DNA of 64,000 bases, taken from contig JAKCPI010014425.1 in NCBI GenBank assembly GCA_023213315.1, positions 1-64,000 on the forward strand, in the 5' to 3' direction. Of the stretch, positions 2,351 through 60,282 are shown one piece after another. A model generated the notes under the pieces. It was not told the origin of the DNA and did not search any database. It saw only the letters and a list, made by a program, of their open reading frames with translations. Origin of the DNA: Euborellia annulipes (Eukaryota > Arthropoda > Insecta > Dermaptera > Anisolabididae). The position numbers were made by a program, and so were the translations under genes. Numbering within the stretch: the stretch's first letter is position 1; every line of letters begins with the position of its first letter.

Positions 2351-2520
2351 TTTAATGAAATAACGCCATCCTCAGTCCCACCCATTATCGAGAGTATGAA
2401 CTCAAATGAGAGAAAATTGAGTCAAATATCCTACTGACAATTCCACTATGTGACTCCATGCTAGGTCATTTGAGTTCATACTCTCGATAATGGGACTGAG
2501 GATGGCGTTATTTCATTAAA
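2351..2520. repeat. Inverted repeat carrying a hammerhead-like motif
   Basis: Arms of about 55 bp (2351-2408 and 2466-2520) are near-perfect reverse complements, with one 3-base insertion in the left arm, around a 57-bp spacer. The right arm supplies the 5' half of the hammerhead-like motif at 2484-2540. Confidence 0.85.
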
Positions 2521-2540
2521 GCCGAAACTGTTTTCTCAAC
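2484..2540 (+). ncRNA. Hammerhead-like ribozyme motif 1
   Basis: CTGAGGA at 2496-2502, a 3-bp stem II (GGC/GCC) around a 14-base loop, then GAAAC at 2524-2528. This has the CUGANGA...GAAA order of a hammerhead core, with one extra base between the core and stem II. Stem I is weak. The catalytic reading is inference. Confidence 0.45.
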
Positions 2541-3147
2541 AGAGAGTTTTATTTTTTTCCCATAAAAAAAGTACACACTATTTCAAGTTGTACACTTCAA
2601 TTTTTTTTTTTATATTAAATGTATTAACTTACGGATCAAAGGCTTTGAACATGACATCTTAAAATAAAAAAAATTACTCCACGTTCCCATTCATATTCAC
2701 ATCTGTTCCATTTATATATTGAATTTTTCTATTGTTATTTTCATTTTTCCATTTGCGTAAACGAACACTCAATGAGGGGGGCTGTAGTGTGATCGAAATT
2801 ATAATTTATTATTATTCCGGTCAATGGAAAAAAATATTTTTGGGTATATGGAAGACTTATTTTTGAATTTTTTAATAAAAGATATATTATCTCCCTCAAG
2901 CACGATTTAAACATTTTTTCAATTCTATTAGTTTCAAATTTGGGTTTAACTTATAAAATTTCAAGAAATAAGTTTAAAACGTTTTTTTACAATTTTTGAC
3001 AAAACTCAGATAATCACCATTACTAGGCCTATATATAAAGCCTAGGTTCCGTTTGTGCCGATCAGGTACTGATTAGCTAGAGTTACAGGGAGTGGAGCAG
3101 GAAATTTGAAAATTTCCAAACAGTCAGCAATAATAAATTTGATGCAT
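2541..3147. other. Unassigned AT-rich stretch
   Basis: AT-rich sequence with poly-T and poly-A runs. No ORF with a recognisable product and no clear repeat end. Confidence 0.4.
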
Positions 3148-3236
3148 TTGCTCGCCGAAGACGAGCCCCTTTTGGGCTACGCCCCCTGGACCCCCTTGTT
3201 CAGGGGGCGTAGCCCAAAGGCGGGCTTTACCACTGG
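3148..3236 (+). mobile_element. Helitron-type 3' tail
   Basis: A GC-rich island in AT-rich DNA with stacked hairpins: GCTCGCCGAAGACGAGC, then an inverted repeat GGGCTACGCCCCCTG / CAGGGGGCGTAGCCC, then GGCGGGCTTTACCACTGG. The last part aligns with the Helitron end at 35271 (GGCGGGCTTTACGACTAG); CTGG fits the CTRR end rule. The 5' part was not found upstream, so this is a truncated tail. Confidence 0.55.
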
Positions 3237-4441
3237 TGGATTATATAAGTCTATCTCGCTCCAATTAAAATTTTATATATCAAAATATCTTTAAATTAAA
3301 ATAAAAAGTTCCAATCCGCCAAGTGATAAAATGATCAACATTGTCTTAGATAAGATTTTTTTTTTAATTTAAGATCTTTTTAGGCATCGGAGGCCATTTA
3401 GATGCGGTCCCTAATTATTTCAATTGATTGGTAGTCAAATCAAATGAAATAAATTTTTGTACGATCCCCAATTTATTTTAAAAGAGGAATAATAAGTGAG
3501 AGTATTAAAATATATTTATAACTTACATCTCGGCAGGTTTTAATAATATTTAAGTTTTTCTTTATCTAAAGCCCCCCCCCCCTTAGCAGACAATACCACT
3601 GGTGATTTACAAAGTTTTAGAGTATTAATGGTTCTGCTATTTCTAGCTCAAAAAGTTTTTTTTTTTCTAATTTATATCTCATTAATTATTCGTTTTATAG
3701 TAAAACTTTTCAAGTAAACTACTACTATTACTAATACAAAATTTAGTTAATATATTAACTTTTATAAGATTTTTTATTTTAATTAAAATAAAAAAATTGT
3801 TTCCTTCATCATATCCGTTTTTTTTTTTTTTAATTAAAAATTTTAATTACTATATTATAGTAAATGTTGGTCCTAAAAATTTTGGTTTGGTCAATATAAA
3901 CGTTTATTCGAATTGGGATATAAAAAAAAAATTTTGTGCAAAAGTTATGTAAGATCTCAACCTCCAGAGATCGAACTTTGTTCTTATTGAGCTCTGCACA
4001 TAATTATTGTATGTTTGAGAATATGTAACGTTGTACGCCCTGTAGCTATGTCCTGGCTTCATTATAACATCAGCATATCATTAATAATTTACCAAATTGA
4101 GGCAGCTAAATAATACTGAGGGAAATTTATAATATATTCCTCTATAACGATACGTAACCAAATGATTAGTAATTAACTATTATTATTACTATTATTGAAG
4201 ATTAGATACCACTGTCAACAACGCAACGTCATTTTTGAAATTAGTCTTATATTAATTCAGAACCAACCAAATAGTCTTTGTTCTTAATAAAATATCACAA
4301 CACTTGTTCAAAATAACGAAATAAAGCTTTTGGAACAGCAAAGGTATTTATCTTATTTCTTCAATTACTTTCATACTTTTTTGGAATGTCTAATTCTCAA
4401 TGGAGCTTTAGAGAATGAATAGAATTTTACCAGTGAGCCCC
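3237..4441. other. Unassigned AT-rich stretch
   Basis: AT-rich, with long T runs near 3357, 3656 and 3821 and a C run at 3572-3582. Nothing coding or structured that I can support. Confidence 0.4.
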
Positions 4442-4634
4442 ACAATTAAGTCCCACCTGATAGCTTTAGCCTTAAGTATATGTTATAGTATATGTTGTAA
4501 AGTGAAATAATTTTAATGACCGAAAAGGTAAAACGTAAAACATTTTACCTTTTAAATTTTAAAATTATTTCACCATTTACCATATTCCATACCATATACT
4601 TAAGGCTAAATCTAACAGGTAGGGACTTAATTGT
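4442..4634. repeat. Palindromic fold-back element of about 190 bp
   Basis: ACAATTAAGTCCCACCTG at the left is matched by CAGGTAGGGACTTAATTGT at the right, and CCTTAAGTATATG by CATATACTTAAGG further in. The ORF that crosses it is a by-product of the palindrome. Probably a small non-autonomous DNA element; the target duplication is unclear. Confidence 0.6.
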
Positions 4635-4803
4635 AACGCTCATTGTACCTAATAATGAAATGCGTTACAGAATCTGGAGACAAAGTTCTTTATTCTAATA
4701 AATTTTCAGATATTAGTTTACTAGAAAAGCTAAATAATAACTTTTGCATCAAGGAAGGTTGCAGGAGCAGAGACTGGAAGCCAAATTTTTTTCTTTAAAT
4801 ATT

Positions 4804-4855
4804 TTATTGTGCCGACGTTTCGGTCTCGATAGCGGCCATCTTCAGGGTCCAATAA
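4804..4855 (-). ncRNA. Hammerhead-like ribozyme motif 2
   Basis: On the minus strand: stem I strand TTATTGGACC, CTGAAGA, a stem II region with GG...CC, GAAACGTC, then GGCACAATAA. The flanks pair as CC/GG and TTATTG/CAATAA around a small internal loop, which matches a type I hammerhead stem I. The tail continues A-rich to TTTGGCTTCC, like the other motifs. Confidence 0.6.
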
Positions 4856-5374
4856 GTGTCAAGGAAATATATATAATTTGCATTAGGCAGCTATGTGTAA
4901 TGATGCTCAATAATTGAATAATTGAAAGATCTCTCGCCTGATGCTCTTTTAAGAGTCTCACAAATCCAGAATCCTGCCTAGGAGTGTCGCCCGCAGAAAG
5001 TGCTAGTATTTAAAAAATTCGTTTATCTTAATTTGATAATCTTTTAATACAAATCAATCTAAGGGGTTTAAATACATGATTTTTTTTTATTTCAAACATG
5101 TTTCAAGTAAAAAAGCTTTTTGAGAGCCACTGTTCGAGAAACATTTTTACATATTTAATATAAAATAAAATATTTTAATTAAAATTCTCACTTATGTTTA
5201 GTTTAAATATTTATTTTTCTTTTAAATTACATTTATGAAGAGAAGAAAATCCTTATTAAAAATGCTCTTAAAAGAGTAGCTAGCAGCTAACTTATATGAA
5301 AATTAAAAAAAAAATTAAAAAAAAAGTGATATAAAATTTTAATTTATCTTTTTATTTTCTCAATTTATATACAC

Positions 5375-6383
5375 TAGGGTGGTTGCAAGGTATAAGGAGA
5401 GAAAATTTTTTTTGGCTGTATTTTCGGCGGGAACCTCTTAAAAGTTGACAATTGGTGTAAAAAGTAGATTGTGAAAGTTTGAGCTCGATCGGATAACGAT
5501 AAGACCTGCCTCATCGGCCCTAAAGTTCATCGATTCCCCTAAATTTGACTATTAACATCTGTAACTCCTAGACGGTTAGTCCAACAAAAAAAGTTCATCA
5601 GTAATTTTTTGAAGATTAAATTTACTAAAAAAATTTACTAAAAAAAAAAGTCCTTTAACATTCTTTAGTAAAGCCAACGGTTTTCATGGTATGGGCAAAA
5701 AATCGAATATGGTTAAGAGGCACATCACATTGATTTTCAAATAACACTAATAGGGGTAATGAAATTTTTTTTCGAGTTCCGAAATATTTTCATCAGATTC
5801 TTAAGTAAAATGACCTCCTGAATCCAAATATGACCTCCGTTTTCCCCCACCCCGTACCGTTTTTGGGGGGGAGCCCCCTACTTATGTTATTTCCACCTCT
5901 TAATCGAAGGGCCATGAATTAAATATAGAGGGATTAAAAGGAATTATTTTAGCCTTAATATTTCTTCTGAACGTCAAGAAAAGTGAAAAGTTTAAAAACA
6001 TTCACGATCGCTAACTTTTTTTTCCCGCCTCTTTATTATTATTTTTTTTTTTGTTCATCTAAATATCTCGCGGCACCCCTTAGCGATTCTCGCGGGACCC
6101 TTGGGTGCCGGGACACACCGGTTGGGAACCACTGATCTAAAGTATTATCAAAAAAAGCAAAAGCAACCTTCTCTTGGTTTAAATACCACAAATGATTTAG
6201 AAGTTTAGACAATGCTATCCTTGATATGTCTCCAAGTTTTATTAAACTTCAGGCCCGTTGAGGCAGGTCTTTAGGTTATTCGATCACGCTCATCCTTTCC
6301 CTATCTCACTTTTACATAATTTAGCAACTTTCTAGAGGTTCCCGCCAAAGATATTCGGACATCAATTTCTTGCGACCACCCTA
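5375..6383. mobile_element. Non-autonomous hAT, TAGGGTGG ends
   Basis: TIRs TAGGGTGGTTGCAAG / CTTGCGACCACCCTA are flanked by a perfect 8-bp duplication ATATACAC (5367-5374 and 6384-6391). Sequence similarity between the two ends runs well past the TIR (GGCGGGAACCTCT and AGACCTGCCTCA in both). 1009 bp, no transposase. It contains the end of another hAT at 6064-6134. Confidence 0.85.
6064..6134 (-). mobile_element. Truncated hAT terminus (CAGTGGTTCCCAACC)
   Basis: The plus strand reads GGTTGGGAACCACTG at 6120-6134, the complement of a CAGTGGTTCCCAACC end as in many animal hATs. It is preceded by a GC-rich GGGTGCCGGGACACACC block. Nested inside 5375-6383; the other end was not found. A related end lies at 59952. 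Confidence 0.5.
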
Positions 6384-6554: not shown

Positions 6555-7493
6555 TGGACCCTGTTATGCAATGGTGTGTCAAAGACCAAACATCGAGTTT
6601 TGAGAAAATCAACAATAAAGTTTTTTGTTTACATTGGATTATATATAATTTTACTTTCTCTTACCTATGTATATATGTAATATATATATAGAGAGAAAGT
6701 ATTGGATTCATGTCAAAAATTCGATGTCGAGATTTTGATGGATCTTCACGTTTTGAGGTCCCCTGAATCCAAAAAAGTGGTTTTCGCGACATGGTCTGTC
6801 TGTGGGTGGGTGGGTGGGTGGGTGTGTGTGTGGGTGGGTGGGTGGGTGTGTGTTCAATTTTAAGCATGAAGGAATTGAGCTAGGAGGTTGAAATTTTATA
6901 TTTAAGTTAAAGACCCCCCGGGACCGGAAAAATAAGCTTTTAATCAAAATCGGCCAAAGAGTACTAGTACTTTACTGATGTACTTTTTCAGTTTTTTTCG
7001 ATTTTCTCAAAATTCGCTCTAACGATTTTGATTAAAATTCAAAAATCAATTATTTTTTAGATGATCTTTCAAATGTATATTCTCGTTTTGCCCTCAAAAT
7101 TGTTTGAAGGACACTTTACTCTTGTGTTTCATAGGAAAGATAGGAGGAATGGTTGCCATGGTTACAAAATATAAATATTTTGCCATGTTTACAATTTTGA
7201 CATCTTAAATTTCTAATATATTTGCGGAAATTAAATATATTTCGACACAAAAAATCTGGTGTGATAAGCACAGAACACAACTGTCGATTACCGAAGGTAA
7301 GAGAAAGTTGTGTGCTGTGCGACAGTCACACCAGATTTTTTCTTGTCAATTGTGCAAGTAACATTAAATATAAATTTTTTTAGGACATATTTCATAAAAA
7401 ATACTATTAATTAAAGCATTTGAAACAATATTCCGTGCTTAACTCAATTTTGAATTTTTTGGTCTTTGACACACCATTGCATAACAGGGTCCA
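6555..7493. mobile_element. Family D element split by an A copy
   Basis: Inverted ends TGGACCCTGTTATGCAATGG / CCATTGCATAACAGGGTCCA enclose about 256 bp of D sequence plus a 683-bp A insertion. The D body matches the uninterrupted copy at 47735-47958, which therefore serves as the empty site. No coding capacity; superfamily not certain. Confidence 0.85.
6653..7335 (-). repeat. Family A copy inserted in D
   Basis: Nearly complete A in minus orientation. Comparison with the D copy at 47735 places the ends at TCTGGTGTGAC (7335) and AGAGAAAGT (6653), within an oligo-T run of D. It has the 5' hairpin, the internal blocks, a CCCA/CA microsatellite (6801-6853) and the 3' hairpin. ORFs reading His/Pro/Thr repeats here are translations of the microsatellite. 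Confidence 0.9.
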
Positions 7494-9640: not shown

Positions 9641-9675
<35 letters not shown>

Positions 9676-19546: not shown

Positions 19547-19602
19547 ATTCTACGTGCCCTGAAGATGAGAGCGACTACCTCTCGAAATGTTGGCGACAGA
19601 AT
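19547..19602 (+). ncRNA. Hammerhead-like ribozyme motif 3
   Basis: CTGAAGA at 19559-19565, stem II GAGAG/CTCTC with a 7-base loop, GAAA at 19584-19587, then TGTT. The flanks pair TGCC/GGCG and ATTCT/AGAAT around a small internal loop as stem I. Followed by an A/T-rich tail and AAGCTGC. Good fold on paper; activity is inference. Confidence 0.6.
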
Positions 19603-19799
19603 ATAAAGATTTTTATTTCACCAAGCTGCTTTTCCCTGAGAAGGCTCCTGTCCTTTTCTTCTAATTGTATATCTACAGCCATTAAACTCAAGAAAGTTAC
19701 ATATGAATTAAATTTTAAAACAGTGAGTGGCCTAAAAAAAAAAGAAGTTATCCAGCTGTCAATGGCGACCAGACTTATAAATGAATTTTAACCAAATAT

Positions 19800-22900: not shown

Positions 22901-23679
22901 CTAAGGTCATCTTATTTGTATTAATAATACAATACTTTATTAATATTTAGTATTTCGGGTGAAATCTTAAAAAGGTTGTACCAGTAGTTTATCAGCTATC
23001 ATACTTTTTCAACCATAAATTTATTTTTATTATGGCAGACTAAAATTTTTTTAATGGAATAGACTCTGCACATAAATTTTTGTCAAAATTGGTTAGCTTA
23101 AAAATTCAAGAGTCCTTAGGCTAAAGTACAGTTTTAGAGATTTCATTTCTTAGAACAGAGGTTTGTTTCTCTTCTCTAGAGATAATAAAAGCATTTAAAA
23201 ATCGATCGAATTATAGAGAAATAGGGCTAGAAGAAAATGGCCTTAGATGCCGAAAAAAATTTAAATCAAAATAATTAGTTTTAAATTAAAACAGGAAGTG
23301 TCAGGTCGACGGAAAAAAATGTTTTAAGAGAATAAAAAAAAAAGTATTTGTACTATTTTCTTTACTTTTTAGAAAACATTAATTAGAAAAGGATTACGAA
23401 TGAAAAATAGCTGCAATTCAACAAATCCTTAGTAATTTTTTTTTATCTTTAGTAATATGTGAAGATAAATGGAATAATTTTTTATTTTGAAATCTTAGTT
23501 TTGTCATTTTGAAATGTACTATATTTGCTTTTAGAGAACAAGTGGTGAAATTTGACTCTAATTTTATATCTCACCTTTTCCCCTTTTTCCACTTATGATG
23601 CAAAATATATTAAATTTGTTTAATGATTTGGGGCTATACTTCTAATTAAAAAAATAATATAAATCAAAGTATTTACATA
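22901..23679. other. Unassigned AT-rich stretch
   Basis: No feature I can support; AT-rich up to the mariner boundary. Confidence 0.4.
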
Positions 23680-24966
23680 CCAGGGGTGTGCCTATGAAAC
23701 CGACCTTTAGAGGTGCGCACATAAACACATATTTTATAAAAGTGAAAAAAGATATTTTATTCAAAGTAATTTCCTTCGTTAGCAATACAATTCTCCCATC
23801 TTTCAGGGAGCTTATGAATCCCTCTCCAAAAAAACTCGTCTTCTTTCGAGGCAAACCATTCATCGAGCCATTTGGCAACATTTTCGTAATCTGTGAACTG
23901 CTGCTCCCTCAAAGCGTGACCCAAAGATGAAAACAAGTGATAGTCCGTTGGGGCCAAGTCTGGGGAATAAGCCGCATGTGTGAGAATTTCCCACCCAAAC
24001 GTTTCAATGGTTTCTTTGGTTCGTTTTGCAGCGTGTGACGGAGCGTTGTCGTGCAACAAGATGACTTTGTGCTGCCTTTTTTGATATTCTGGTCTTCTTT
24101 GGCGTATAGCCTGGTTCAATTTCACCATTTGCTGTTGATAACGTTCCGTATTGACAGTTTCGCCAGGTTTCAGGAGTTCGTAATAGATAATTCCCTTCTG
24201 ATCCCACCAAACACAAAGCATTGTCTTTCGTCCATATCGATTTGGTCTTGGAGTCGATGTTGATGGCTCACCTGGAGATACCCATGATGCTCGACGCTTA
24301 GGATTTTCAAAAAAGATCCATTTTTCATCTCCAGTAACAATTCGATGAAGAAATGACTTTCTTTTGTATCTGGCGAGCAGCATCTCACAAGTGGTTTTTC
24401 GGTTCTCTTGCTGCCTTTCGTTCAGTTCATGTGGAACCCATTTCCCGATCTTCTGGATCTTCCCCATAGCTTTCAGACGCTTGGAAATAGTTTCCCGAGT
24501 CACGTTTAACTGTTCTGCCAATTGTTGTTGTGTTTGAGTTGAATCTTCATTCAACAATTCTTGCAAATCGGTGTCATCAAACTTTTTGGGCGGTCGGCCA
24601 CGTGCTTCGTTCTTAATGTCAAAATCTCCCCTCTTGAATTTTTTGAACCATTCTTTGCACTGTGTTTCACCAAGAGCATAGTCGCCAAAAGCTTCTACAA
24701 GCATTCGATGAGACTCCGCGGCCGTTTTTTTCAAATGATAGCAAAAAATCAACGCCGTCCGCAAATCACTTTGTTGAGGAACAAAGGTTGACATGTTTGA
24801 CGTGGTGAAAAAAAATGTTGGGAGTATGAAATTGGAATTTTTTTGAGTTCGAAACTTAGAACAGACATAAACCAAACAAACAAACTCAATAACTAGACTG
24901 TATAGTACCAAAACTGGCCGCCAGGATTTTTCAAAGTAAAAGGCGGTTTCATAGGCACACCCCTGG
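23680..24966 (-). mobile_element. Complete mariner transposon (Mos1-like)
   Basis: Both ends read CCAGGGGTGTGCCTATGAAA toward the inside and are identical for the first 23 bases, extending to about 28-30 with one gap. TA dinucleotides flank it (23678-23679 and 24967-24968), the Tc1/mariner target duplication. The length, 1287 bp, is close to that of Drosophila Mos1 (about 1286 bp). It carries one uninterrupted transposase gene. Terminal identity and an intact frame suggest a young, possibly still active insertion. Confidence 0.95.
23757..24794 (-). CDS. Mariner transposase, 345 aa, intact
   Basis: Catalyses cut-and-paste movement of its element: binds the TIRs, cuts and integrates at TA. The start chosen is the ATG at 24794 (MSTFVPQQ...), giving 345 residues, the Mos1 length; the open frame extends 39 codons upstream but those are not family-like. 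N-terminal helix-turn-helix DNA-binding region roughly residues 1-112 (ICYHLKK-like start, then QLAEQLNVTRETISKRL); WVPHEL linker motif at 119-124. Catalytic DD34D triad present: D156 in TGDEKW, D249 in LLHDNAPSH and D284 in YSPDLAPTDYHLF. Ends in WENCIANEGNYFE as in the mauritiana subfamily. No frameshift or internal stop, no intron. Subfamily from memory of Mos1; close similarity is clear throughout. Confidence 0.96.
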   Translation of the reverse strand: MSTFVPQQSDLRTALIFCYHLKKTAAESHRMLVEAFGDYALGETQCKEWFKKFKRGDFDIKNEARGRPPKKFDDTDLQELLNEDSTQTQQQLAEQLNVTRETISKRLKAMGKIQKIGKWVPHELNERQQENRKTTCEMLLARYKRKSFLHRIVTGDEKWIFFENPKRRASWVSPGEPSTSTPRPNRYGRKTMLCVWWDQKGIIYYELLKPGETVNTERYQQQMVKLNQAIRQRRPEYQKRQHKVILLHDNAPSHAAKRTKETIETFGWEILTHAAYSPDLAPTDYHLFSSLGHALREQQFTDYENVAKWLDEWFASKEDEFFWRGIHKLPERWENCIANEGNYFE

Positions 24967-24970
24967 TATA

Positions 24971-25057: not shown

Positions 25058-25171
25058 TGTATGTGCGTGAATGTAACTATTGTTGTAAGAATGTATGCAA
25101 CAAAGGAAAAAAAAAGAGAGAAAGTAAGAATTATTCACTGTTAACTAAGCTGTATGTTTGCCTTTTTGCAT

Positions 25172-25275
25172 GTCTAGAGTCCTGATGAAGGGAGGCGTTG
25201 AGTCCCCCGAAACGCCGTCTGTATAGTGGTATTAAAATTTGGCCTGAAAATACCTCCAGCATTTTCATTTGTTAA
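25172..25275 (+). ncRNA. Hammerhead-like ribozyme motif 4 and tail
   Basis: CTGATGA at 25182-25188, stem II GGGA/TCCC, GAAAC at 25209-25213 and GTC at 25217-25219, with a possible 2-bp stem III (AC/GU) closed by three bases. Stem I is weak. Tail TGTATAGTGGTATTAAAATT then TGGCCTGAAAATACCTCC is shared with the motifs at 57182 and 57829. Confidence 0.5.
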
Positions 25276-35826: not shown

Positions 35827-36439
35827 TGAACAAAAGTAAAAAAAAAATCAGGCAATAGACGTTGTCACATTAAAAGACCACCGGCTGTGTAGACGACACA
35901 GCCAACATAGAATTTTTTTTATCTGACGCCACCCTGTAACTAAAATTAATGAACAAATTTTTTTTAAATTTTTTTGAAACAGTTTCGTCCATAGCTGCTA
36001 CGTGCGATACCCGCTTTAATATGTAAGTTGATCCTTTCATGAAATAAAAGAAAGAAAAAATTAAAAATAATTTCTTTTTATTTATTCCATCTCTAAATTT
36101 AATATCATTTTCCATTTCTTTTCTTTTATTAAATAAAAACAATTTTTTTTTTTTTGCAAATGTTTCTTTTATTTACCATCTAGCTGTTGATAATGCATCT
36201 TGAAGGAATTTCAAATTAAGATTTATTTACTTTTTAACATTTTCATTTAATAAAATCTTGCTTTTCCTTTAATTAAATTATTAGATTCTAAACGCATGCT
36301 AAAACGATACGTGCGCAATAATCTTATAAAAAAGTGGAAATAATTTTAAAAGAATTTAATTAAGTGAGCGGATAATTTAATTTCAATGATTATGTAATGA
36401 GTGTCTTTTTTATTTATTTCCGGATGCTGGTCTCTTTTT
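35827..36439. other. Unassigned stretch
   Basis: 35850-35910 shares CACCGGCTGTGTAGACGACA with the hAT interior at 21358-21420. The rest is AT-rich. Confidence 0.4.
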
Positions 36440-37165
36440 ACTTTCTCTTACCCTATATATGAAATATATAGAGAGAAAGTATTGTATTCATGTCAAAAAT
36501 CCGATGTCGAGATTTTGATGGATATACACGTTTTGAGGTCCCCTGAATCCAAAAAAGTGGTTTTCGCGACATTGTCTGTCTGTGTGTGTGTGTCTGTGTT
36601 CAATTTTAAGCATGAAGGAATTGAGCTACGAGTTTGGAATTTTATATTAAAGTTAGGCACCCCCCCTAGGGCGTGAAAATAAGCTTTTAAACAAAATGGT
36701 CAAAGAGTACTACTAGTTCAATGAATAATGGAAATGGCTGTGATGATGATTGAATAAGGAAAGCTATGCTGCCCTGCTTTCCTTATTCAAAAAGTACTAG
36801 TACTTTATTGATGTACTTTTTCAGTTTTTTTCGATTTTCTCAAAATTCGCTCCAACGATTTTGCTTAAAATTCAAAAATCAATTATTTTTTAGATGCTCT
36901 TTAAAATGTATATTCTCATTTTGCTATTGAAATCTTCTGAAGCACACTTTACTTTTGTACTTTATAGAAGAGATAGGAGAAATTGTAACAAAATATCAAT
37001 ATTTTCCCATACTTATAAATTTTACATCTTGAAAATCGATTGTACCCTACTGTCGGAAACAAAATACATGTCGACACAAAAAATCTGGTATGACAAGCAC
37101 AGAACACAACTTTCGAATACCGAAGGTAAGAGAAGGTTGTGTGCTGTGCGATTAGTCACGCCGTA
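36440..37165 (-). repeat. Family A copy with an internal insertion
   Basis: Nearly complete minus-strand A from ACTTTCTCTTACCC to the degraded 5' hairpin at TAGTCACGCCG. An extra segment of about 70 bp (36716-36788) with the hairpin GAATAAGGAAAGC / GCTTTCCTTATTC interrupts the AGTACTAGTAC block. Confidence 0.85.
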
Positions 37166-37609
37166 TTTTTATACATTTTTATATACCAACAAACATAACA
37201 AATACAAATTGATCTAATTATTTGTAGCTAACTATTTCATAGTAGGTCAAGCGAGGCTTAAAAAAAAAAATTAATATTTTATAATTACAAAGGGGGGTAA
37301 AGTAAAATGAAAATATTCCCTTGGTATTTTTTTCCTTTGTTTAGTAAAATACTTTGTAAGAAAAATAAATAAATGGAGTTGGTTTAACATTTCCCTGGTT
37401 GTTTTCCGTAAATAAATGACTTGACTCTTCTGAAAAACGAGTCGATTCCTCGAGCCTTGTTAAAGAGTTATGTTTAGTTATATTCTTAAATAATGTGATG
37501 TATATATCTTACTGAACCAAAGGAATTTGATCTCAACAAAAGTTTAAGAAATAAAAATTCTTTAGTAAAAGTAAATTTATTAGCATATAAAATTACTATC
37601 TCAAAAACT
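37166..37609. other. Unassigned AT-rich stretch
   Basis: Nothing supported. Confidence 0.4.
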
Positions 37610-38415
37610 ATTAAGCTTACGGAGCTGTGGTTTGTCTTCAATTGTTTGAAATTTAATATACTTTAAAAATTATAAAAACTACTAATGTCAAAAAGCCCAT
37701 AGTTATTAGTTTTTGAATTAAACTGCAAAAACTGAAAAAATGTCCGAAAATTTTGAAGTTTTTCTAGTATTACGCAGGTAGCACAACTTTTTTTTGATTG
37801 AAAAATGTGGTTTCATACTCCCTAAGGGGTCCAAATAACATACCTAAAATGCAGCGTTACTTCTCGTTTTGCGAATTTAATGTCGAATTTGACTGGACTA
37901 TTACTGCAATTTTTTTTTTCGATTACAAGAGAACTACAAGGGTTACTGACCCCATACTGCGCTTAAATGAAAGGTAATTAAATGTGCTAAAACTCAATTT
38001 ATCACAACTTTTCTCTAAGCTTGAGCGGTTAAGCCGATATATGGCTTTAAACATAAGGAAAACTAAAAATTGTAACATTTGTGAAAATCTTGTACATTTT
38101 TCTATCATCATATCTCAAAAACCTTTAGAGATATAGAGCTGAAGGTTGGCTTGAATTGTTTCAAATTTAATATACTTTCAAAATGGTATAAGCAACTAAT
38201 GTCAAAAAACCCATAGTTTTTTAATTAAACTGCAAAAACTGAAAAAAGTGCGAAAATTACGCTGTTTTTCTCGCATTACGCGGGAAGCGCAACTTTTTTT
38301 TAATTGCAAAATGTGGTTTCACACTCCCCTAAGGGGCCCAAATAACATAACAAAAATGCAGAAATTTTTTATGTTTTGCGATTTAAATGTCGATATTGAC
38401 TGGCCTATTAATACA
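37610..38415 (+). repeat. Tandem duplication, period about 507 bp
   Basis: A block of roughly 300 bp occurs at about 37615-37915 and 38125-38415, aligned at AAACTGCAAAAACTGAAAAA (37720 and 38227), CTCCCTAAGGGG and CAAATAACATA. By eye about 80% identical. No coding frame is shared. Confidence 0.75.
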
Positions 38416-38505
38416 ATTCAACGAGACGTTTCGGGTGAATTTTTGTAGGACTGAAGATGGGTAAATAAAATTCACCCGAAACGTCTCGTTGAATTGTATT
38501 AAATC
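38407..38505. repeat. Inverted repeat around hammerhead-like motif 5
   Basis: TTAATACAATTCAACGAGAC and GTTTCGGGTGAATTTT at the left are the exact complement of AAAATTCACCCGAAACGTCT, CGTTGAATTGTATTAA at the right, about 36 bp per arm. The right arm is the 3' half of the motif. Confidence 0.85.
38438..38500 (+). ncRNA. Hammerhead-like ribozyme motif 5
   Basis: CTGAAGA at 38451-38457, stem II GGGT/ACCC, GAAAC at 38478-38482 and GTC. Tail continues A/T-rich to TTTTTGGCTGCACCTGCTCC. Stem I pairing is weak here because the 3' part instead pairs with the upstream inverted arm. Confidence 0.5.
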
Positions 38506-43490: not shown

Positions 43491-43664
43491 CACCGGCTTC
43501 GCATTGTCAGCATAGGAGGCTATTTAGACCGAGCCTATTGATTTCAATTGATTGGTAGCCAATCTAATGAAAAGCTCTTGCCTTATGAAATTAGTTAAAA
43601 ACACATCATAAAATATGATATAATAATTCTTTCATTTGTGTATAATGTATTTTTAACTAATTTC

Positions 43665-43725
43665 TTAAAGTCAAAAAGAAGGCAAGCCAAGAGATATTGC
43701 CGAAACGTCGCCAATAAACAATTTC
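43665..43725 (+). ncRNA. Degenerate hammerhead-like motif
   Basis: Stem II GGCA/TGCC, GAAACGTC and CGCCAATAAACAAT are kept, but the CUGANGA half is lost (CAAAAAGA at that place). Decayed relative of the other motifs. Confidence 0.3.
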
Positions 43726-49602: not shown

Positions 49603-50419
49603 TCTGGTGTGACTGGTCGCATCAGATGTTATGAGTCGACACACATTTAGTTTCCGACAGTACTGTACATTCGAATTTCAAAATGGGAAAATATTTATAT
49701 TTTGTAACCATTGCAACCATTGGCGTAGCCAGAAATTTTTGATGGGGGGGGGGATCAAGAAATGTTTTTCAAAAATTTAAGATTATTTTAGGGTATTTAT
49801 AAATCATTTTGGTTTGTTTTTTTAGCTAGAGTAAATTATTATATTTTACTTTCTCTTACCCTTTGTGAAATATAATTTGTATTAAATATTTAGTCATGGC
49901 TTGGGTCCCATGGAGGGGGGGTTTGAACCCCCAAACCCCCCCCCCCCCCTGGCTACGCCTATGATTGCAACCATTTCTCCTATCTTTCCTATGAAGTACA
50001 AGAGTAAAGTGTGCTTCAAACAATTTTGAGGGCAAAATGAGAATATACATTTGAAAGAGCATCTAAAACATAGTTGATTTTTGAATTTTCATCAAAATCG
50101 TTAAAGCGAATTTTGAGAAAATCTAAAAAAACTGGAAAAATACATTAGTAAAGTACTAGTACTTTTTGGTCGATTTTGATTAAAAGCTTATTTTCACGCT
50201 CTAGGAGGGTAGTCAACTTCCTCTAAAATTCAGCCTCCTAGCTGAATTTCTTCATGCTTTAAATTGAACCCAGAACACGCGACCATGTCGCGAAAATCAC
50301 TTTTTTGGATTCAGGGAACCCCAAAACGTGTATATCCATCAAAATCTCGACATCGAATTTTTGACATGAATCCAATACTTTCTCTATATATTAACATATA
50401 TAGAGGTAAGAGAAAGTAA
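49603..50419 (+). repeat. Family A copy split by a C MITE
   Basis: A with a partly deleted 5' hairpin (TCTGGTGTGACTGGTCGCAT then GTCGACACACATTTAG), complete middle and 3' hairpin ending AGAGAAAGT. Interrupted by the C element at 49718-49963 in the TTGCAACCATTTCTCC block. Confidence 0.85.
49718..49963. mobile_element. Family C hAT-type MITE nested in A
   Basis: Ends CATTGGCGTAGCCAG / CTGGCTACGCCTATG with G and C runs, flanked by a perfect 8-bp duplication ATTGCAAC (49710-49717 and 49964-49971). 246 bp. Younger than the A copy that it splits. Confidence 0.9.
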
Positions 50420-51348
50420 TAATGATTATTAAATACAATATAAAGTGAATAGATTACTAGAGATATAAGAAATTATTTCAATTTAATTGGCTTTAGGAAG
50501 CATAATTATAATTTAATAAAGATTATTTTAGACATGTATAATTGAGAAAAATGATTTTCCTTATTAAAAGTCAATCTCATCCCAGGTGAAAATAAATCAA
50601 ATTTGATTAAAAATTATTATTCTCCAAAATAGAGAAAAGAAAAGTCAACGCATATTTCATGCTATAATAGAAGTTAAATAACAAGCTCTGAATAAGAAAA
50701 GGGGACCCGAAAAGTGCAAGGAAATCGACGACAGGAGAATTGGTGTCCCCCTCGATAGCCATCAACTGTTCTATATCACGCAGGCCTTTTAGGACCCTAA
50801 AGAGCCAATGTTTAGTTTATTAACCTCTTAATTCCTTACGTGCCTAGCAGTTGGCATTTATTTAAATTTAATTAATTATTAAATATTTCCTGATTGCGTA
50901 AATCCGTTCCGAGTTTAGCTAAGACATTGACATTTGAGTTCACTGGCCCAAAAAAATCATGTTAAATCAAGATTTGAAAATCTATATTTAATAATTGAGG
51001 GGTGTTTGGTCCTTCTGCCCAGTTTGGCCATCTTTCCGTAGGAATTTTGAATGAATTTTGAAATGAACGTTATAAAGGAAAAAATTTTCGGTCCCAAAAT
51101 TTCCATTTGGAGAGTCTAAAATTTTTTTGAAAATCCAGAATTCCAATGAAAAATCAAAGCAAATTAATTATATTATACTAAAAAAAATATTAAATTTATT
51201 AAATTTGTTAAAAAATCATATAATTTCTAGGAGTTTATTTTTCCCGGATAGTTTTTGATTCCGGGAAACGAGAAATCTAAAAAAATCTTTAATCATTAAA
51301 AATTTTAACTCATTTTATCATGATGAAAAATATGGCTGTTTAGCTTGA
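50420..51348. other. Unassigned stretch
   Basis: 50690-50830 is less AT-rich, possibly single-copy. 51000-51290 is AT-rich without features. Confidence 0.35.
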
Positions 51349-51472
51349 TTAGGATAGCGGAGGGCAGCCAAGAAAGAAATCAAATCAGATAAAATATAAT
51401 GAATGCTTTATCAGTTTTTTATTTGAATGTCGACGTTAGGACGCCAGTCGCGCCCTTCCTCAGGACAATCAA
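51349..51472 (-). ncRNA. Hammerhead-like motif 6 (core damaged)
   Basis: Minus strand: TTGATTGTC, CTGAGGA, GGGCGCGACTGGCGTCC, then CTAAC where the others have CGAAAC, so the GAAA half is broken, then GTCGACATTCAA. It is an inverted copy of 56317-56456, tail included (TTCTTTCTTGGCTGCCCTCC). Confidence 0.55.
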
Positions 51473-51563
51473 AATGGTCAATGAAAAATACAGATGGTTT
51501 TCGTTAAGATACCTAACACGCAGTGAAGTCATTTCGACTTTTCTTCAGAAGGCAACTTTTACA

Positions 51564-52183
51564 ACTTTCTCTTTTACCTATATGTGCGGTAATATACATG
51601 TGTTATGAGAGAGAAGTATTGGATTAATGTCAAAAAAATTCGATGTCGAGACTTTGATGGATCTTCACGTTTTGAGGTCCCCTGAATCGAAAAAAGTGGT
51701 TTCGCGACATGGTCTGTCTGGGGTGTGTGTGTGTATCCAAAATAAAGCATGAAGGAATTGGCGGGAGGGTTTGAAATTTTATATTTAAATTAGGGCACCC
51801 TAACTTTTAATCAAAATCGGCCAAAAAGTACTAGTACTTTACTGATGTGCTTTTTTCAGTTTTTTTTGATTTTCTCAAAATTTGCTCCAACGATTTTAAT
51901 TAAAATACAAAAATCAATTATTTGTTAGATGCTCTTTAAAATGTATATTTTTCATTTTATCACTGAAATCTTTTTTGAAGACCACTTCCCCCTCTTGTAC
52001 TTCATAGGAAAGATAGGAGAAATGGTCGCCATGGTAATAAAATATAGTAATATTTTCCCATACTTATAAATTTTACATCTTGAAATCTAAATTTTTTAAT
52101 ATATCGACGGAAACTAAATATATGTCGACACGAAAATCTGGGTGTAACAAGCACAGTTGTGTGCTGTGCAAAATCACACCATA
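51564..52183 (-). repeat. Family A copy in the hAT 3' region
   Basis: Minus-strand A from ACTTTCTCTTTTACC to a shortened 5' hairpin (AAATCACACCATA). It lies between GGCAACTTTT and TTTTTTTCTT, the same B position occupied by A in the copy at 1060-1887. Confidence 0.8.
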
Positions 52184-52875: not shown

Positions 52876-55500
52876 TTAATTTGACAAAGGATAACGTCTT
52901 GGACGCATTTTTGCAAAATCATCTATAAGTTCTTCCAAATCTAAACTCTTGACCAACTCTTGTTCAATAGCCATAAGCATTAAGCTATTCAGCCTTTCAT
53001 CTCCAATTGTTGTTCTTAAATATGTTTTAACTTTTTTCAGAACAGAAAAAAAATCTTTCATTTGAGGCTGTTGAAATAGGAATGGTGAGAACAATTTCTA
53101 TAACTTTAATAACTTCCGAATAAGCTAAAGGTGTTTCTTTTAAATATTCAACCATCTCAATAAGACAACTTGATTGATTTCCTAATCTTTTATTTAAATA
53201 ATTTCTTGAAATGCATAGTTGTGAACTCAAAGGTCTGTATCAATCAATCTTGTATATTTGTAATGATTTAAAAATGTTTTTAAATTCTTCTTTTAGAAAA
53301 AAAGGAGATGTATTATCAAAACATGAAAAACAATTATATAATTGTTCATTTTGAGAAAATCTCCTATCAAATTCTGCCAAAAATCGATCAATAATAATAA
53401 AATATTTTTTGGCGGAAATAGTCTTCAATATTTGTTTCATCTCTTTTGCCAACTGTAGTTTCAATATAACTTTCTAAAAGTTTTTTTGAAATTTTTGTTG
53501 CTCTTTTTTCTTGAGTTTTTTCTATGTTTTTCTCGAAAGGAATATCCATAGAGTGAGCAAAGTGTTTAACTTCTTCGATCAAATTTTTTATTTCAATCTC
53601 TGTTCTCATTTTTTGAAGTTCTCTCGTGTTGATTGGGCAAGGTACACAATGCTGGGAAACTGGATATTGCTTGTTTGGAGTTGTTGTGATAAATTATAAG
53701 TTATTTTAAGCAATTTTTCTAAAGCATATAAATAAAAAATAAATTCTGATGACTGCATTTTCGTTTTTTAAACCTATACATTCAGGTTCGCAGAATTTTT
53801 TGTAAATGCTCAATAGTATTTAAAACAATTATTATAGCTTCAAAGCGGTCTTTAATTTTTTTGATAGATTTGTACCAATAAAACCATCTCGTAGGAACAG
53901 GACGTTCTAAAGTTAATATGTTTTGATTTTAATTCTTTTTGTGAATCAAGAAAAGTTGATGTCTTGTATTACTATTTGCTATAAAATTATATATAGAATT
54001 AATAGAAATAAAAAAAAATTATTAAGTTCAACACAATCACTTATTGAGTTTATTAAAACTAAATTTAATTGATGAGCGTAACAATGAACGTAGGTTGCAT
54101 AAGGAATTTTTTCTTTAATTCTTGCTTGAACACCATTGGCACATCCGCTCATTACACTGGCACCATCATAACATTGACCTACTAAGTTATTTAAATCTAA
54201 GCCTAAACTAGTTAGTTTACCTATAATTGAATCACAAAGTGATTTTGCACTCAAATCCTTTACATAAATAACAGCTATCGCTCTTTCTCTTATTTTATTT
54301 TTGATAATAGTATCTTAATACTATTGCTAATTGTTCTTTTTTGACAAATCTTTGGTTTCATCTGCTAAGATTGAAAAATACTTAGAATTTTTTATTTCAT
54401 CAATTATTGATTTTTTGGATTTTTTACCAAATACTTCAATAAAATCATTTTGATATTCTGGGGAAGTATAGTGGCCATATCTTTTTTTCTATTTTTTTTT
54501 TCATATTTTCATCTTCTTTGAGAGAGCCAAAATAAGTTTCTTTAAAGTTTCCTTTATTAAAGGATGTTTCTGATTCATCATGCCCTCTGAAAGGTAATGC
54601 TTGTCTTCCAAGAAAGCTTGTTGCATTTAATAATATTTTGAGATGCTTTCTATTATCACTTATTTCTTGTTTTCTTGACTTATCAATAAGTGTAGCGACA
54701 GACGATTTTTGGCTCTTTTGTATTTTGTCTAAATCTGCCCATGAACCCATCGAATTTATATGCCGCTCACTCTCGGCGTGTTGTTTTAATAAAGCACTTA
54801 TATCTTTCCACTTGGAAAATCCTTTTTCAATGAAAGTTCTTTTTCCTTCCAGTTTCCCTGGACGAAAAGTATTAGAAGAAAAATGACGGCAAGCAAAGCA
54901 AAAAATGCCATCCAAAGATTGTGAATATTCAACCCAATTATATTTTGAATAATAATTTGGGGAAAATTTTCTTCCTTTCGAACAAGGAAAATTTTCAAGA
55001 AGAGGTTGTATAGGAGTATCGAATTTTGTATTGGAAATATCATTTGGCCCTGAGAATGACGCCTAAAAAATAAGAACAATTTTTTAGAGAAAGAAAGATT
55101 TAAGTATATTCCCCCCCTCCCCGTGGCAGAGAGGCTAGGTTGTTGACAAATGTCAATAATGACAGCCTGGAAGCCAATGGGAACCAACGGATTCCAGGCA
55201 GTCCAATGAATTTATTTAAATCATTTGGATTCCAAATAGTATAAAAAAATATGCCTGGACTCCCACATAAATGTATTTAATAATTAGTATCGTATCATAC
55301 TCTAAAATGGCCTGACATGCCGAAAATACTAAAAAATAAAAAAAAAGTATATGTGATAAAAATCTTACCTTTTGTTTGGTTGAAGTGGAGGCCTCAGAAA
55401 TACTTAATGTAGAAGTGTTGGAGGATTTTATTCTTCAGAATTTTCAATTCTTTCACTTTCATGTTCATTTTTTTTTAATTTTTTAAAAAAAATCTGTTAA
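52876..55500 (-). pseudogene. hAT transposase pseudogene (TTF zinc finger, DUF4371, hAT dimerisation)
   Basis: Reading the minus strand: a Ser/Thr-rich start (SNTSTLSISEASTSTKQK) ends in an exon at 55369 with donor AAG|GTAAG; the next exon starts at 55062 after TTTTTTAG and reads in frame ASFSGPNDISN... to WVEYSQSLDGIFCFACRHF, the TTF-type zinc-finger region, then FLGRQALPFRGHDES. Frame changes follow near 54480 and 54310. Further pieces: EIKNSKYFSILADETKDLS, GQCYDGASVMSGCANGVQAR, YVHCYAHQLNLVL, RPVPTRWFYWYKSI, and the C-terminal dimerisation region with TIPISTASNERFF, LKKVKTYLRTTIGDERLNSL and the stop at 52876. Domain order fits the ZMYM1-like hAT branch. At least five frameshifts or stops; not functional. 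Probably the former source of transposase for family B. Confidence 0.9.
55095..55345 (+). mobile_element. SINE S-like insertion in the transposase intron
   Basis: GTGGCAGAGAGGCTAGG resembles a tRNA A-box region, GATTCCAGGCAGTCCAATGA the B-box junction, then TTATTTAAATCATTTGGATT and ATGGCCTGACATGCCGAAAA. A diverged S copy in the transcribed-antisense direction of the host gene. Confidence 0.6.
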
Positions 55501-56221: not shown

Positions 56222-56316
56222 AAAGGATCAGAATCCTTGGGGGGGGCAAATGCCCCCCTGCCCCCCCCAAATGACGCCACTGCTAACACGTGTATTTGTA
56301 TTTTTTTCCCTTGACG

Positions 56317-56456
56317 TTTTGATTGTCCTGAGGAAGGGCGCGACTGGCGTCCGAAACGTCGACAATCAAATAAAAAAATCTGATAAAAGATTGATTATAT
56401 TTTTATCTGATTTGATTTCTTTCTTGGCTGCCCTCCTCTATCCTAATAACTCATTT
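56317..56456 (+). ncRNA. Hammerhead-like ribozyme motif 7 (best preserved)
   Basis: Stem I strand TTTGATTGTC (56318-56327) pairs over 10 bp, without mismatch, with GACAATCAAA (56361-56370). Between them: CTGAGGA (56328-56334), A, stem II GGGCG/CGTCC with a 7-base loop CGACTGG, GAAAC (56353-56357) and GTC (56358-56360), the expected cleavage triplet position. Stem III would be only AC/GU, as in minimal type I hammerheads known from Penelope-like elements and satellites, which often work as dimers. One extra A lies between the core and stem II. Tail reaches TTGGCTGCCCTCCTC. Confidence 0.7.
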
Positions 56457-56457
56457 T

Positions 56458-56512: not shown

Positions 56513-57169
56513 GTGAGGGGTTTATATATTTCTAATATAAACCTATACATACATATTTATATTAAATGTCTAAAACAAGTTGCCTGAAAAATTTTGGTAC
56601 ATGATTGAGTAGTTGAAGGGACGCGAGGCCCACAAGAGAAGGGCAAACATTTATTTTTCAATATTGGTATTTCACTAATTGACTATTATTGATATTTTTT
56701 CATTATATTTTTGGAACCATTAACTCTAATTATCTTATTAAATTGGGAATAAAATAAACTTCAGACAAAATATAAAGGCAAAGCTTGTCCAATTAAATAA
56801 ATGGGGGGTTGCATGTCGAACTAAAGGGATTGCTAAGCGGGGGCGAACATGCCTGCCATCATAGGAGAGCATTAACCTAATTGTTTGCTTATACCCTAGA
56901 AGAAGTCCAGGACTTCTTTCGCAGGATTCAGAAAGGATACAGCAAAACCTTGCGATTATAATGTAATCGTTTTTATTCTAAGGGAAATGGATTTGTATAC
57001 AATATGTTGGGTGTTTTATTTTCCTCTTCAATCGGTAGGGTTATGCAATTCTTCACTCGGTATCAAATAATAATGCCGACCCCTAATCAAGGGAATAAGA
57101 TGAAAGAGGAAGGAAAAGTAAAGAACTAATTTTAATAATCAAATGGACAGTAATTCGTTTCCCGGCGAT
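56513..57169. other. Unassigned stretch with possible single-copy island
   Basis: 56800-57120 is less AT-rich and unmatched in the window. No exon supported. Confidence 0.35.
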
Positions 57170-57275
57170 AACACATTAATACTGATGAAGGAAGCGTTTT
57201 GCTTCCGAAATGTCGACTGTATAGCGGTGAAATAAATTTGTTTGCCTGAATATACGTCAAGTATTAATAATCAAA
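57170..57275 (+). ncRNA. Hammerhead-like ribozyme motif 8
   Basis: CTGATGA at 57182-57188, A, a perfect 6-bp stem II GGAAGC/GCTTCC with loop GTTTT, GAAA at 57207-57210 and TGTC. Stem I is weak. Tail CTGTATAGCGGTGAAATAAA then TTTGCCTGAATATACGTC matches motifs 4 and 9. Confidence 0.5.
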
Positions 57276-57824
57276 TATCAAACCAAGAATATGACATACA
57301 GTGTATTTAAAATGGCTTATAATCCCTAATAGAAATGGAAATGTAGCTTATTTAAATGCTTCTTAAAGGTACCCTCAGATAATTTTTTTTTTTTTGTGCA
57401 AACATTTATTTTTCAATAATCGGCTGTTTTGTCCACCTCCAGGGCTTTTTAAACTCCCTCGTGACTCGAAAGCTAATCGGGAACCAATCAAGGACTAGAG
57501 TGATTTGGCACCCGATTTTTCGATTTTTTTTCGCTATTGGCATTTGGCGGTTACGGCTCTAGAATAACAATTTCGGGCACAGGGTGACTAGGATGTTATT
57601 ATGCTAGTGTTTAATTCTTTCCTTTTATTTAATATCTGTTTGTGTTTATTAAAAAAAAAATAAGAGAACAATGTTGCCACACTTTCCTGCTATTGTTAAT
57701 AAAAGCTAATCAAATCCATAGGTAACATACTCATTTGAAACAATTGTTAACGCACATTGTTTCAATTTAGTATGTAATTTGACAAAACCAAAGGGAGGAT
57801 TAATTTATTAATCTGAATTTGATA
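57276..57824. other. Unassigned stretch
   Basis: 57410-57600 is less AT-rich; otherwise nothing. Confidence 0.35.
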
Positions 57825-57905
57825 GTCTTGAGGAAGAGAGGTGTTTAGACTCCCGAAAAGTCCGCTATATTGTGGAAATCAATTGGCCTGAATATTTAGT
57901 ACCTT
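57825..57905 (+). ncRNA. Hammerhead-like motif 9 (degenerate)
   Basis: CTTGAGGA, a GAGAGG...CTCCC stem and GAAAAGTCC, then TATATTGTGGAAATCAATTG and GCCTGAATATTTAGTACC. Same layout as motifs 4 and 8 but the core has an insertion and substitutions. Confidence 0.4.
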
Positions 57906-57990
57906 CAAAACAAGCGTTATTATTTAATTAGTACATTAAAATATTTTTTCCTAATAATGAATATAAGTAAATTTTCACATGAGAAAAAAA

Positions 57991-58636
57991 TCTGGTGTGA
58001 CTGGACACAACTTCTCTTACCTTCGGTAATCGAAAGTTGTGTACTGTGCTTGTCACACAGATTTTTTGTGTCGACATATATTTAGTTCCCGACAGTACGG
58101 AACATATGAATTCAGATGTAAAATTTATAAGTATAGGAAAATATTTGTTTTGTTACCATGGCAACCATTTCTCCTATCTTCCCTATGAAATACAAGAGTA
58201 AAGTGGTCTTCAGAAGATTTCAATTGCAAAATGAGAATATACATTTTAAAGAGAATCTAAAAAATAATTGATTTTTGAATTAAAAAAAAAATCGTTGGAG
58301 CAAATTTTGAGAAAATCGAAAAAAACTGAAAAAGTACATCAGTAAAGTACTAGTACTCTTTGGCCGATTTTGATTAAAAGCTTATTTTTCCGGTCCCGGG
58401 GGTGTTTAACTTATATATAAAATTTCAACCTCGTAGCTCAATTCCTTCATGCTTAAAATTGAACACACACCCACACACCCACACACCCACAGACAGACCA
58501 TGTCGCGAAAACCACTTTTTTGGATTCAGGGGACCTCAAAACGTGAAGATCCATCAAAATCTCGACATCGAATTTTTGACATGAATCCAATACTTTCTCT
58601 CTTATATATATTACATATATACATAGGTAGAGAAAG
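57991..58636 (+). repeat. Family A, complete copy
   Basis: TCTGGTGTGACTGGACACAA to GGTAGAGAAAGT, with every block of the family and a short CACACCCACACACCC microsatellite (58463-58491). The 5' hairpin is slightly shortened. Two ORFs here (CLKLNTHPHTH...) are repeat translations. Confidence 0.9.
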
Positions 58637-59951
58637 TAAAAAAATTGAGCAACTAATAACTACTAAATGTATATATTCAGTGAACCTTGCAAAAGAAAAA
58701 TTATCCAGCGTGGTATTAAATGGAATTTGGTTATTGATATTTTTGAGATGCCCTCGTTATTTTTAACCCGGATAATATTTAGCTCGGGAGAAAGTCGCGA
58801 GAGTGCGCTGGGGAATCGATCCAAGAAGAATACAACACAAGAGGGCGCTTAAGAGCAAGGGGATGCCTAAGGGAATAAACACGGTGTAGAAGAGACAAAT
58901 GACCTTCCTGTTCCTACGCCAATGGTCTCTCCCAAAGCGATTACATCTGTCATTTGGATTGCAATTGAATCGATCTTGGCCAACAATTCCTATCAATTGT
59001 TTTTTTTTTTTTTTTTTTTTTTTTTTGTGAGCAACATTACATTGATTAATTGACTTCTTTTGGTAAAACTGTTTTCAAAGACATTTTCACAGATGGCGAC
59101 AAACCAATCAAAGCTGAGGTAGATAAGGCTCATCTAGTATTAAGAAAGAGATCATTATAGCTATTTTATGTTTATAACAATGAAAAGAAACAAGCCGCTA
59201 ATAATAAAAATTGGGCCTAACCGGAGGCCGAGAAGTTAGAGATGATGATATTGTCCCTAATGATAATCTTAGAGCCTTTAATAAAAACTCATTTAAATCA
59301 AATGATATAATACTAAAGGAGGCGATAGATTGGCCAACAATTTATTGAAATAAATAGGGCCGGAGTCTAAATGAACTCCAAAAAATACATTAAATAGGTA
59401 AAAAAAAAATCATTGTGTGGTTTTATGAAACCACGATGCAAGTGAAACTTTTTTTTTCGGATCGTAGGCGTTTAACAGAAAATTTTCAGAAAATTATTCA
59501 ATTACGGGTATTAAAATCGCGTTTTTAATTTTAACTTAATAATTGGAAAATGGGAATGATAATGAGAAATCAATAGACGCATGTTAAAAACTGAGAACAA
59601 TATTTATTTAGTAATTGAAGAATTGAAGAATTTTAAATTATTTTAAAAATTATATTTTATCAATTTAATTAATTAATCTCACAATTATTTTTTTATAATT
59701 TGTCATATATATTAAATTTCAACTTTCCTATTTTTGTAGTCAAGGCTTGTGACGTCATGGCTGGTAGCGTCATGGCTTGTAACGCGACATGCTAATAGAA
59801 GAGCGAAAAAATTTCACTTTGAAAATTGATATATTAAAATACGAAAAATTTTTAACTGGCCTCCACACATACCCCCTATAGCCAGCTGGTTCACCCACTG
59901 ATATGGTGACATAGATGACAAATGAAAAGGCGAGATGATGAATTCTAGTGC
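58637..59951. other. Unassigned stretch
   Basis: 58730-58990 is less AT-rich and may be single-copy; poly-T at 58999-59026. 59090-59400 also contains mixed-composition sequence. No exon supported. Confidence 0.35.
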
Positions 59952-60025
59952 AGTGGTTTCCAAACTTTATGCTACCACGCCTCCCTTAAAAATATTCAAT
60001 CTTATGACGCCTCCCCCCTCCCATT
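59952..60025 (+). mobile_element. hAT-type terminus (CAGTGGTTTCCAAACTTT)
   Basis: CAGTGGTTTCCAAACTTTAT then GCTACCACGCCTCCC and GACGCCTCCCCCCTCCC: a common animal hAT end. The other end was not found. Confidence 0.55.
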
Positions 60026-60077
60026 TTATAAAATAATATAGGTATGAGGGTATTTTATGGCTGGTGGAATTTGTATC

Positions 60078-60282
60078 AGGAATGAAAGTTAGAAGAAAAC
60101 GAAGCCAGAAATTTTTCTTTAAAAATATATTTTAACAGCTTACGTTTCGGCCTTGGGAAAGCCATCCTCGGATGACCACTAACAGCTCCGTGGAAGGCTT
60201 TGACCAAAGTCGAAACGTCAGCTGTTAAAGTATATTTTTAAAGAAAAATTTCTGGCTTCGTTTTTTCTAACTTTCATTCCTG
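60078..60282. ncRNA. Inverted pair with two hammerhead-like halves (motif 10)
   Basis: Arms of about 73 bp: 60078-60150 (CAGGAATGAAAGTTAGAAGA to ACGTTTCGG) and 60210-60282 (CGAAACGTCAGCTGTTAAAG to CATTCCTG). On the minus strand the left unit reads CCGAGGA, GGC...GCC, GAAACGTA; on the plus strand the right unit keeps GAAACGTC but not the CUGANGA part. Both have the same tail with TTTCTGGCTTCGTTTT. Confidence 0.55.

Follow-up and report, generated by a model that had tools for sequence, protein, structure and literature searches.

What kind of element left the small hammerhead-like RNA motifs that are scattered over a stretch of the Euborellia annulipes genome? The stretch analyzed here, called the window, is 64,000 nucleotides long (contig JAKCPI010014425.1 of assembly GCA_023213315.1, positions 1 to 64,000 of the forward strand); it is AT-rich (27.5-36% GC in 4-kb steps) and contains many short repeats. 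A preliminary description had listed eleven such motifs in it, with a hint at Penelope-like elements (PLEs) as their parent. We observed eleven scattered short relics, each with a minimal self-cleaving RNA motif, which look like stubs of a mobile element. The motifs are genuine, yet largely expected, since this kind of element is already well described. The hint at a parent holds insofar as PLEs are the best match; no gene for reverse transcriptase (RT) or GIY-YIG was seen in the window.

Membership and anatomy of the motif family

We name the sites by the position of their core, with a hyphen for the minus strand: 4845-, 19559, 25182, 38451, 51463-, 56328, 57182, 57828, 60188, 43673, 60171- and 2496 (Table 1). 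Denominators of 12 refer to the eleven sites listed in the preliminary description plus 60171 on the minus strand, which we added; 2496 is always counted. The common order read at the sites is a 5' arm, the core, an extra A or T, stem II, GAAA, CGTC, and a 3' arm. Core, stem II and GAAA, intact or decayed, are found at the first ten sites named above. Core CUGANGA and GAAA are both exact at 7 of the 12 sites, a count that includes 2496, which fails other tests, and altered at five; the altered cores are those of 43673, 57828, 60188, and 60171. After GAA comes the tetramer ACGU at seven sites and AUGU at two (12 sites in all), self-complementary if G-U pairs are counted, and helix III is reduced to this tetramer, with 25182, 57828, and 2496 as exceptions.

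Table 1. Positions of the hammerhead sites, palindromes, and candidate insertions in the window
Feature	Coordinates	Strand	Details
Best-preserved minimal hammerhead 56328	56316..56372	+	core CTGAGGA, stem II 6 bp, GAAA, CGTC, stem I 10/10
51463, sibling of 56328	51420..51475	-	89% over 155 columns; GAAA changed to TAA; stem I 9/10
51463, candidate whole insertion, 148 bp	51333..51480	-	10-bp repeat at 51481-51490 and 51323-51332
Minimal hammerhead 4845	4802..4857	-	intact core, stem I 8/10, TTGGC at +34
4845, candidate whole insertion, 102 bp	4757..4858	-	8-bp bounding repeat, directly after the tail
Minimal hammerhead 19559	19547..19603	+	stem II 5 bp, GAAATGTT, stem I 6/10; tail block unrecognisable as TGGCY
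Minimal hammerhead 25182, TTGGCCTGA-tail group	25170..25228	+	stem I 6/10
Minimal hammerhead 38451	38439..38497	+	right palindrome arm; stem I 5/10; TTGGC at +39
Palindrome around 38451, head-to-head, 95 bp	38408..38502	.	83% over 96 columns; left arm stops before the tail
Minimal hammerhead 57182	57170..57226	+	stem II 7 bp; stem I unpaired (4/10)
57182, candidate whole insertion, 119 bp	57145..57263	+	13-bp repeat at 57132-57144 and 57264-57276
Decayed hammerhead 57828	57816..57874	+	TTGAGGA; TTGGC at +25
Hammerhead 60188	60176..60231	+	altered core CCGTGGA, stem II 6 bp, stem I 8/10; right palindrome arm
Added copy 60171	60129..60183	-	CCGAGGA, stem II 6 bp, stem I 3/10; left palindrome arm
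Palindrome 60188/60171, head-to-head, 208 bp	60076..60283	.	82% over 157 columns; tail block near both outer ends
Relic 43673	43661..43721	+	CTGA gone; 5-bp stem II and GAAACGTC retained
Site 2496 of the preliminary description, unsupported as member	2487..2542	+	E 0.24 and 1.8

The pattern CTGANGAN{6,30}GAAA has 13 matches in the window (3.66 expected), a number that none of 100 shuffles reaches; the matches comprise six family members, 2496, and six other sites. A strict form of the motif (W, closed stem II, GAAAYG) occurs six times in the window and in none of 200 Markov sequences. An Rfam scan of the window gave no match at the gathering score, and no hammerhead family was present among its 30 matches at E <= 10. 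A first hand-made motif scan was empty in the window and gave 0-3 matches in each of 20 Markov sequences, our guess being that it probably disallowed the extra A or T between core and stem II. A looser hand-made score did not separate the window (best 27) from Markov sequences (up to 28). Both of these scans were superseded by the strict count and by covariance models.

A covariance model built from the 11 accepted copies recovers these by construction, and its next best match, at E 0.24, is 2496. For a fairer test we trained a model on six copies and asked it for the six held-out sites, four of which rank above all background (best background E 0.12): 51463 (E 5.5e-11, but a close sibling of a training copy), 57182 (0.0014), 25182 (0.0051), and 43673 (0.0076). 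The six-copy model misses 57828 and 2496, both at E 1.8. We retained 57828 because its DNA matches 25182 (74%, E 1.5e-7). Site 2496, given as 2484 in the preliminary description, lacks both CGTC and a tail block, and on these grounds and its two model scores we dropped it from the family; its stem I pairs 5/10, which alone would not exclude it, as the accepted 38451, 43673, 57182, and 60171 pair 3-5/10. The proposal that the listed motifs are one family thus stands for 10 of the 11, which form one structural family with 2484/2496 outside it. The motif that had been placed at 60078 lies at the left end of the 60076-60283 palindrome, which holds two copies, 60188 and 60171, the latter not listed separately before. 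Positions 2351-2520, which contain 2484/2496, also form a palindrome (2351-2428 with 2447-2520, 86% over 78 columns), unmatched to the hammerhead family.

Pairing and covariation of the stems

We measured pairing in a loop-trimmed alignment of 12 rows, 2496 included, against 500 shuffles and six slid registers. Two cautions apply: the rows were positioned on the motif, manually or with MAFFT, and relatedness between rows inflates shuffle tests. In this alignment 75.6% of cells are paired versus 56.9% when shuffled, and 38 cells carry a double-sided change versus 16.4, neither value being matched in any of the 500 shuffles. The covariation score is 0.545, compared with 0.226 in shuffles (0/500 as high) and at most 0.199 in the slid registers. 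Further pair types number 29 versus 21.8 (4/500), and, less strikingly, 11 of 13 pairs show a double change versus 8.7, a result reached by 29 of the 500 shuffles. An untrimmed MAFFT alignment of 11 rows, without 2496, scored 0.505 versus 0.231 (0/500 shuffles). The signal is strong in stem II (90% of cells paired) and moderate in stem I (67%). Two 5' arms are unpaired, that of 57182 and that of 60171, the latter of which runs into the palindrome centre.

The preliminary description had read the conserved fold with changing sequence as selection on the RNA in the parent elements, and had proposed covariation as the test. The result supports that reading: stems I and II pair above shuffled and slid controls, and the refuting outcome that had been named, pairing no better than under neutral decay of a single ancestor, was not seen. 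The stems would covary because the master elements of each family kept the fold, whereas inserted copies decay. Selection on the parental fold together with decay after insertion would also explain why families that differ in sequence still pair, and why siblings differ by damage; what sets 56328 and 51463 apart is the loss of one stem I pair and damage to GAAA. When single strands are folded by energy, both stems appear as drawn in 56328, 51463, 60188, and 19559, and in cofolds all 12 sites, 2496 included, favour the duplex (ddG -1.4 to -13).

Tails, copy ends and palindromes

Past GAAA, 6/12 sites have TTGGC, at +25 to +68, and 8/12 have TGGC(C/T), at +26 to +69; two occurrences are left out of the counts, TTGGC at +3 in 19559, which falls within the 3' arm, and TGGCY at +103 in 57182. 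From the frequency in the window (0.155 TGGCY per 120 nt), the probability of at least 8/12 is ~5e-5, and that of TTGGC at 6/12 or more is ~3e-4, values to be read knowing that the eight include both arms of a single palindrome as well as a sibling pair and that the block was picked post hoc. By eye, the block is degenerate in 57182 and 43673, just GCTGC in 19559, and absent from 2496. The earlier statement that all motifs are followed by a TTGGC-type block was too strong.

Where a copy ends can be judged only by comparing it with a matching copy. The similarity between 56328 and 51463 stops at 56447, ~111-113 nt past the start of stem II depending on the base counted from. Bounding repeats that may be target duplications were found at 57182 (13 bp, chance 0.009 before correction for 11 sites), at 51463 (10 bp, chance 0.087, or 0.025 with narrower windows), and at 4845 (8 bp, a length that is not significant at 0.42, or 0.205 with narrower windows). 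If these candidates are right, whole insertions measure only 102-148 bp. We also considered 57182 to 57828 as one composite unit and rejected it: each of the two matches 25182 by BLAST, but no match between the two themselves appears at E 0.05.

Other repeats lie near the sibling copies. The 8-mer CTAACACG occurs at 51513-51520 and 56283-56290 only, where it adjoins a repeat terminus beside 51463 and 56328; its orientation relative to the ribozyme is opposite at the two siblings, and it has no part in the argument here. A repeat family of ~400-730 bp, ~80-92% identical and present in both orientations (6649-7347, 57984-58641, 62684-63410, 49964-50419, 51604-52157, and 36435-37170), has pieces near 56328 and 51463.

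Head-to-head palindromic junctions are present at two places, 60076-60283 and 38408-38502. For Penelope of the rotifer Adineta vaga, PMC3846280 describes head-to-head inverted pseudo-long terminal repeats (pLTRs) that meet in palindromic junctions, one arm of which may carry a tail; solo pLTRs and target duplications of 8-10 bp are described as well. Both palindromes resemble this arrangement, and the window shares with the rotifer element the head-to-head orientation, the palindromic junction, a tail that may be confined to one arm, and solo pLTRs; in contrast, the typical rotifer units keep an RT/endonuclease gene and target duplications, neither of which was seen at the palindromes here. 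A possible, if rather doubtful, account is that tail-outward palindromes were left by insertions where each of the two cut target strands primed reverse transcription from the internal start, the short cDNAs being joined head-to-head. One arm may then be without a tail because there would be two RT start sites. According to PMC11167929, the protein of an anole PLE can cut both strands in vitro and extend each of them, and PMC3846280 explains inverted pLTRs by self-priming on an antisense template; the two cases found here are insufficient to separate dual priming from self-priming. Neither palindrome was seen to have an adjacent target duplication, which argues against dual priming and also against a PLE origin. 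These palindromic stubs are short enough for testing how PLEs form inverted repeats.

Penelope-like elements as the probable parent

We consider it very likely that the relics are severely 5'-truncated insertions, perhaps only 100-150 bp long, from several Penelope families, the parents having been under selection and the copies now decaying. The assignment to PLEs draws on the RNA, whose architecture fits, and on the anatomy of the insertions, which fits in part. The hammerhead on a parental pLTR transcript would be a minimal type I motif with ACGU alone as helix III, and two copies could pair through this self-complementary tetramer and stem I to form an active dimer. Reverse transcription would begin at the tail block shortly downstream of the ribozyme and would often halt soon past the ribozyme, giving insertions of about that length with little beyond ribozyme and tail. 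The window may have received copies from several PLE families, among them at least the groups with TTGGCTGC and with TTGGCCTGA tails.

Cervera and De la Pena reportedly dealt in 2014 with minimal type I hammerheads of PLEs, and Lunse, Weinberg and Breaker are said to have treated the same hammerheads in 2017, under a title that mentions dimer cleavage. According to PMC6155905, PMC7761336, and PMC7229834, PLE hammerheads are minimal type I motifs without helix III, which have been found by the thousand, for the most part dispersed, in many animal genomes. The sites described here share CUGANGA, stem II, GAAA, a near-absent helix III, and dispersed copies with them, as far as the descriptions go; they differ in that several cores are decayed and no PLE reading frame was seen in the window. 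A parallel in anatomy is PAc, the Poseidon PLE of Anolis carolinensis, where, according to PMC11167929, reverse transcription starts 111-118 bp into an open reading frame (ORF) beginning at stem II and genomic copies end there. Here too a hammerhead would stand shortly before an internal RT start and copies may end at the tail, the PAc distance of 111-118 comparing with the ~111-113 nt of our best pair, 56328/51463. In PAc the ORF starts in the hammerhead, whereas ATG frames at 4845, 19559, and 38451 stop within 15 codons.

Several observations weigh against a PLE origin. The preliminary description had noted no RT nearby, with which our limited searches agree: by eye, no RT or GIY-YIG was found in frames of at least 40 amino acids up to 1.2 kb upstream of 11 sites (all but 60171, two of them taken at slightly wrong coordinates); a six-frame word scan of the window gave two Y/F-x-DD and nine GIY-like words, none convincing by eye; and Pfam had no match in six chosen upstream frames free of stops. 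No frame with RT and GIY-YIG between pLTRs, as would identify a PLE, came out of these searches of the window. We therefore file the sites as PLE-derived relics and not as PLEs, the missing RT and GIY-YIG being as expected for truncated copies. Groups other than 56328/51463 end nearer, ~60-90 nt past the start of stem II, and the RT start of PAc is an AC-rich stem loop, whereas the tails here are C/T-rich by eye. A target duplication is plausible at only 3 of the 11 scanned sites, with nothing convincing at the other eight, and just one candidate is significant, before correction. Moreover, should the 13-bp repeat that bounds 57182 be a target duplication, the insertion would include the unpaired 5' arm, for which truncation then offers no explanation. 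The nearest same-strand pair, 57182/57828, is 646 bp apart. Single-strand energy folds do not reproduce the full drawn pair of stems in 25182, 57828, 60171, and 43673, and several cofolds pair stem II between strands, unlike an active dimer; as support, the energy folds are weak.

Among the alternatives, a non-autonomous family comparable to short interspersed elements, a minimal retrozyme of hammerhead and tail only that PLEs move in trans, would account for the units of 102-148 bp that look complete and are bounded by candidate target duplications, and for the nearly equal 5' limit of similarity in 56328 and 51463. Metazoan non-LTR retrozymes likewise carry a type I hammerhead in a short element (PMC7229834 and PMC7761336). 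They are, however, tandem repeats of 150-300 bp, many with a stable helix III, according to PMC7761336; neither tandem units nor such a helix were seen here, and no tandem array with a period up to 500 overlaps the sites. The sequence groups have different tails, as several PLE families would predict, and we regard such a family as unlikely. Selection at each locus, with the motifs serving as functional host RNAs, is suggested by 56328, which retains all core residues and in which stem I pairs perfectly. In the sibling copy 51463, however, GAAA and one pair of stem I are broken, and the cores of four further sites are altered, which makes this explanation very improbable.

That the motifs are chance look-alikes in AT-rich DNA is the least credible explanation, so low do we rate it. 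Site 2496 and the weak matches at model E > 0.1 do behave in this way, and the loose hand-made score did not tell the window from Markov sequences; against it stand the strict count, the four held-out sites found by a model of other copies, the covariation of the stems, and, for the accepted sites, DNA similarity. If truncated PLE insertions are indeed the source, part of the genomic footprint of these elements consists of gene-less stubs of ribozyme and tail that the Rfam scan of the window did not report.

A pattern scan of viral contigs gave 23 stretches, many of which are by eye hammerheads with a closed helix III, the rest being chance-like; the pattern imposes the base before GG and is uninformative on that base. 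In contigs L003, L004, L005, L008, L019, and L020 the hammerheads show, by eye, a closed helix III and a paired stem I and lie shortly upstream of an ATG.

The window also contains transposase-type sequences. On the minus strand at 53982-55062 there are two transposase-like frame pieces with matches to DUF4371 (PF14291), hAT-like being no more than a label of our own; a third frame, at 53391-53693, had no match. At 23677-24969 lies a mariner element, which may be a recent copy: its terminal inverted repeats are 97% identical across 32 bases, and its Mos1-type transposase frame, on the minus strand, is uninterrupted and matches PDB 3hos at E 9.2e-180 along 345 residues.

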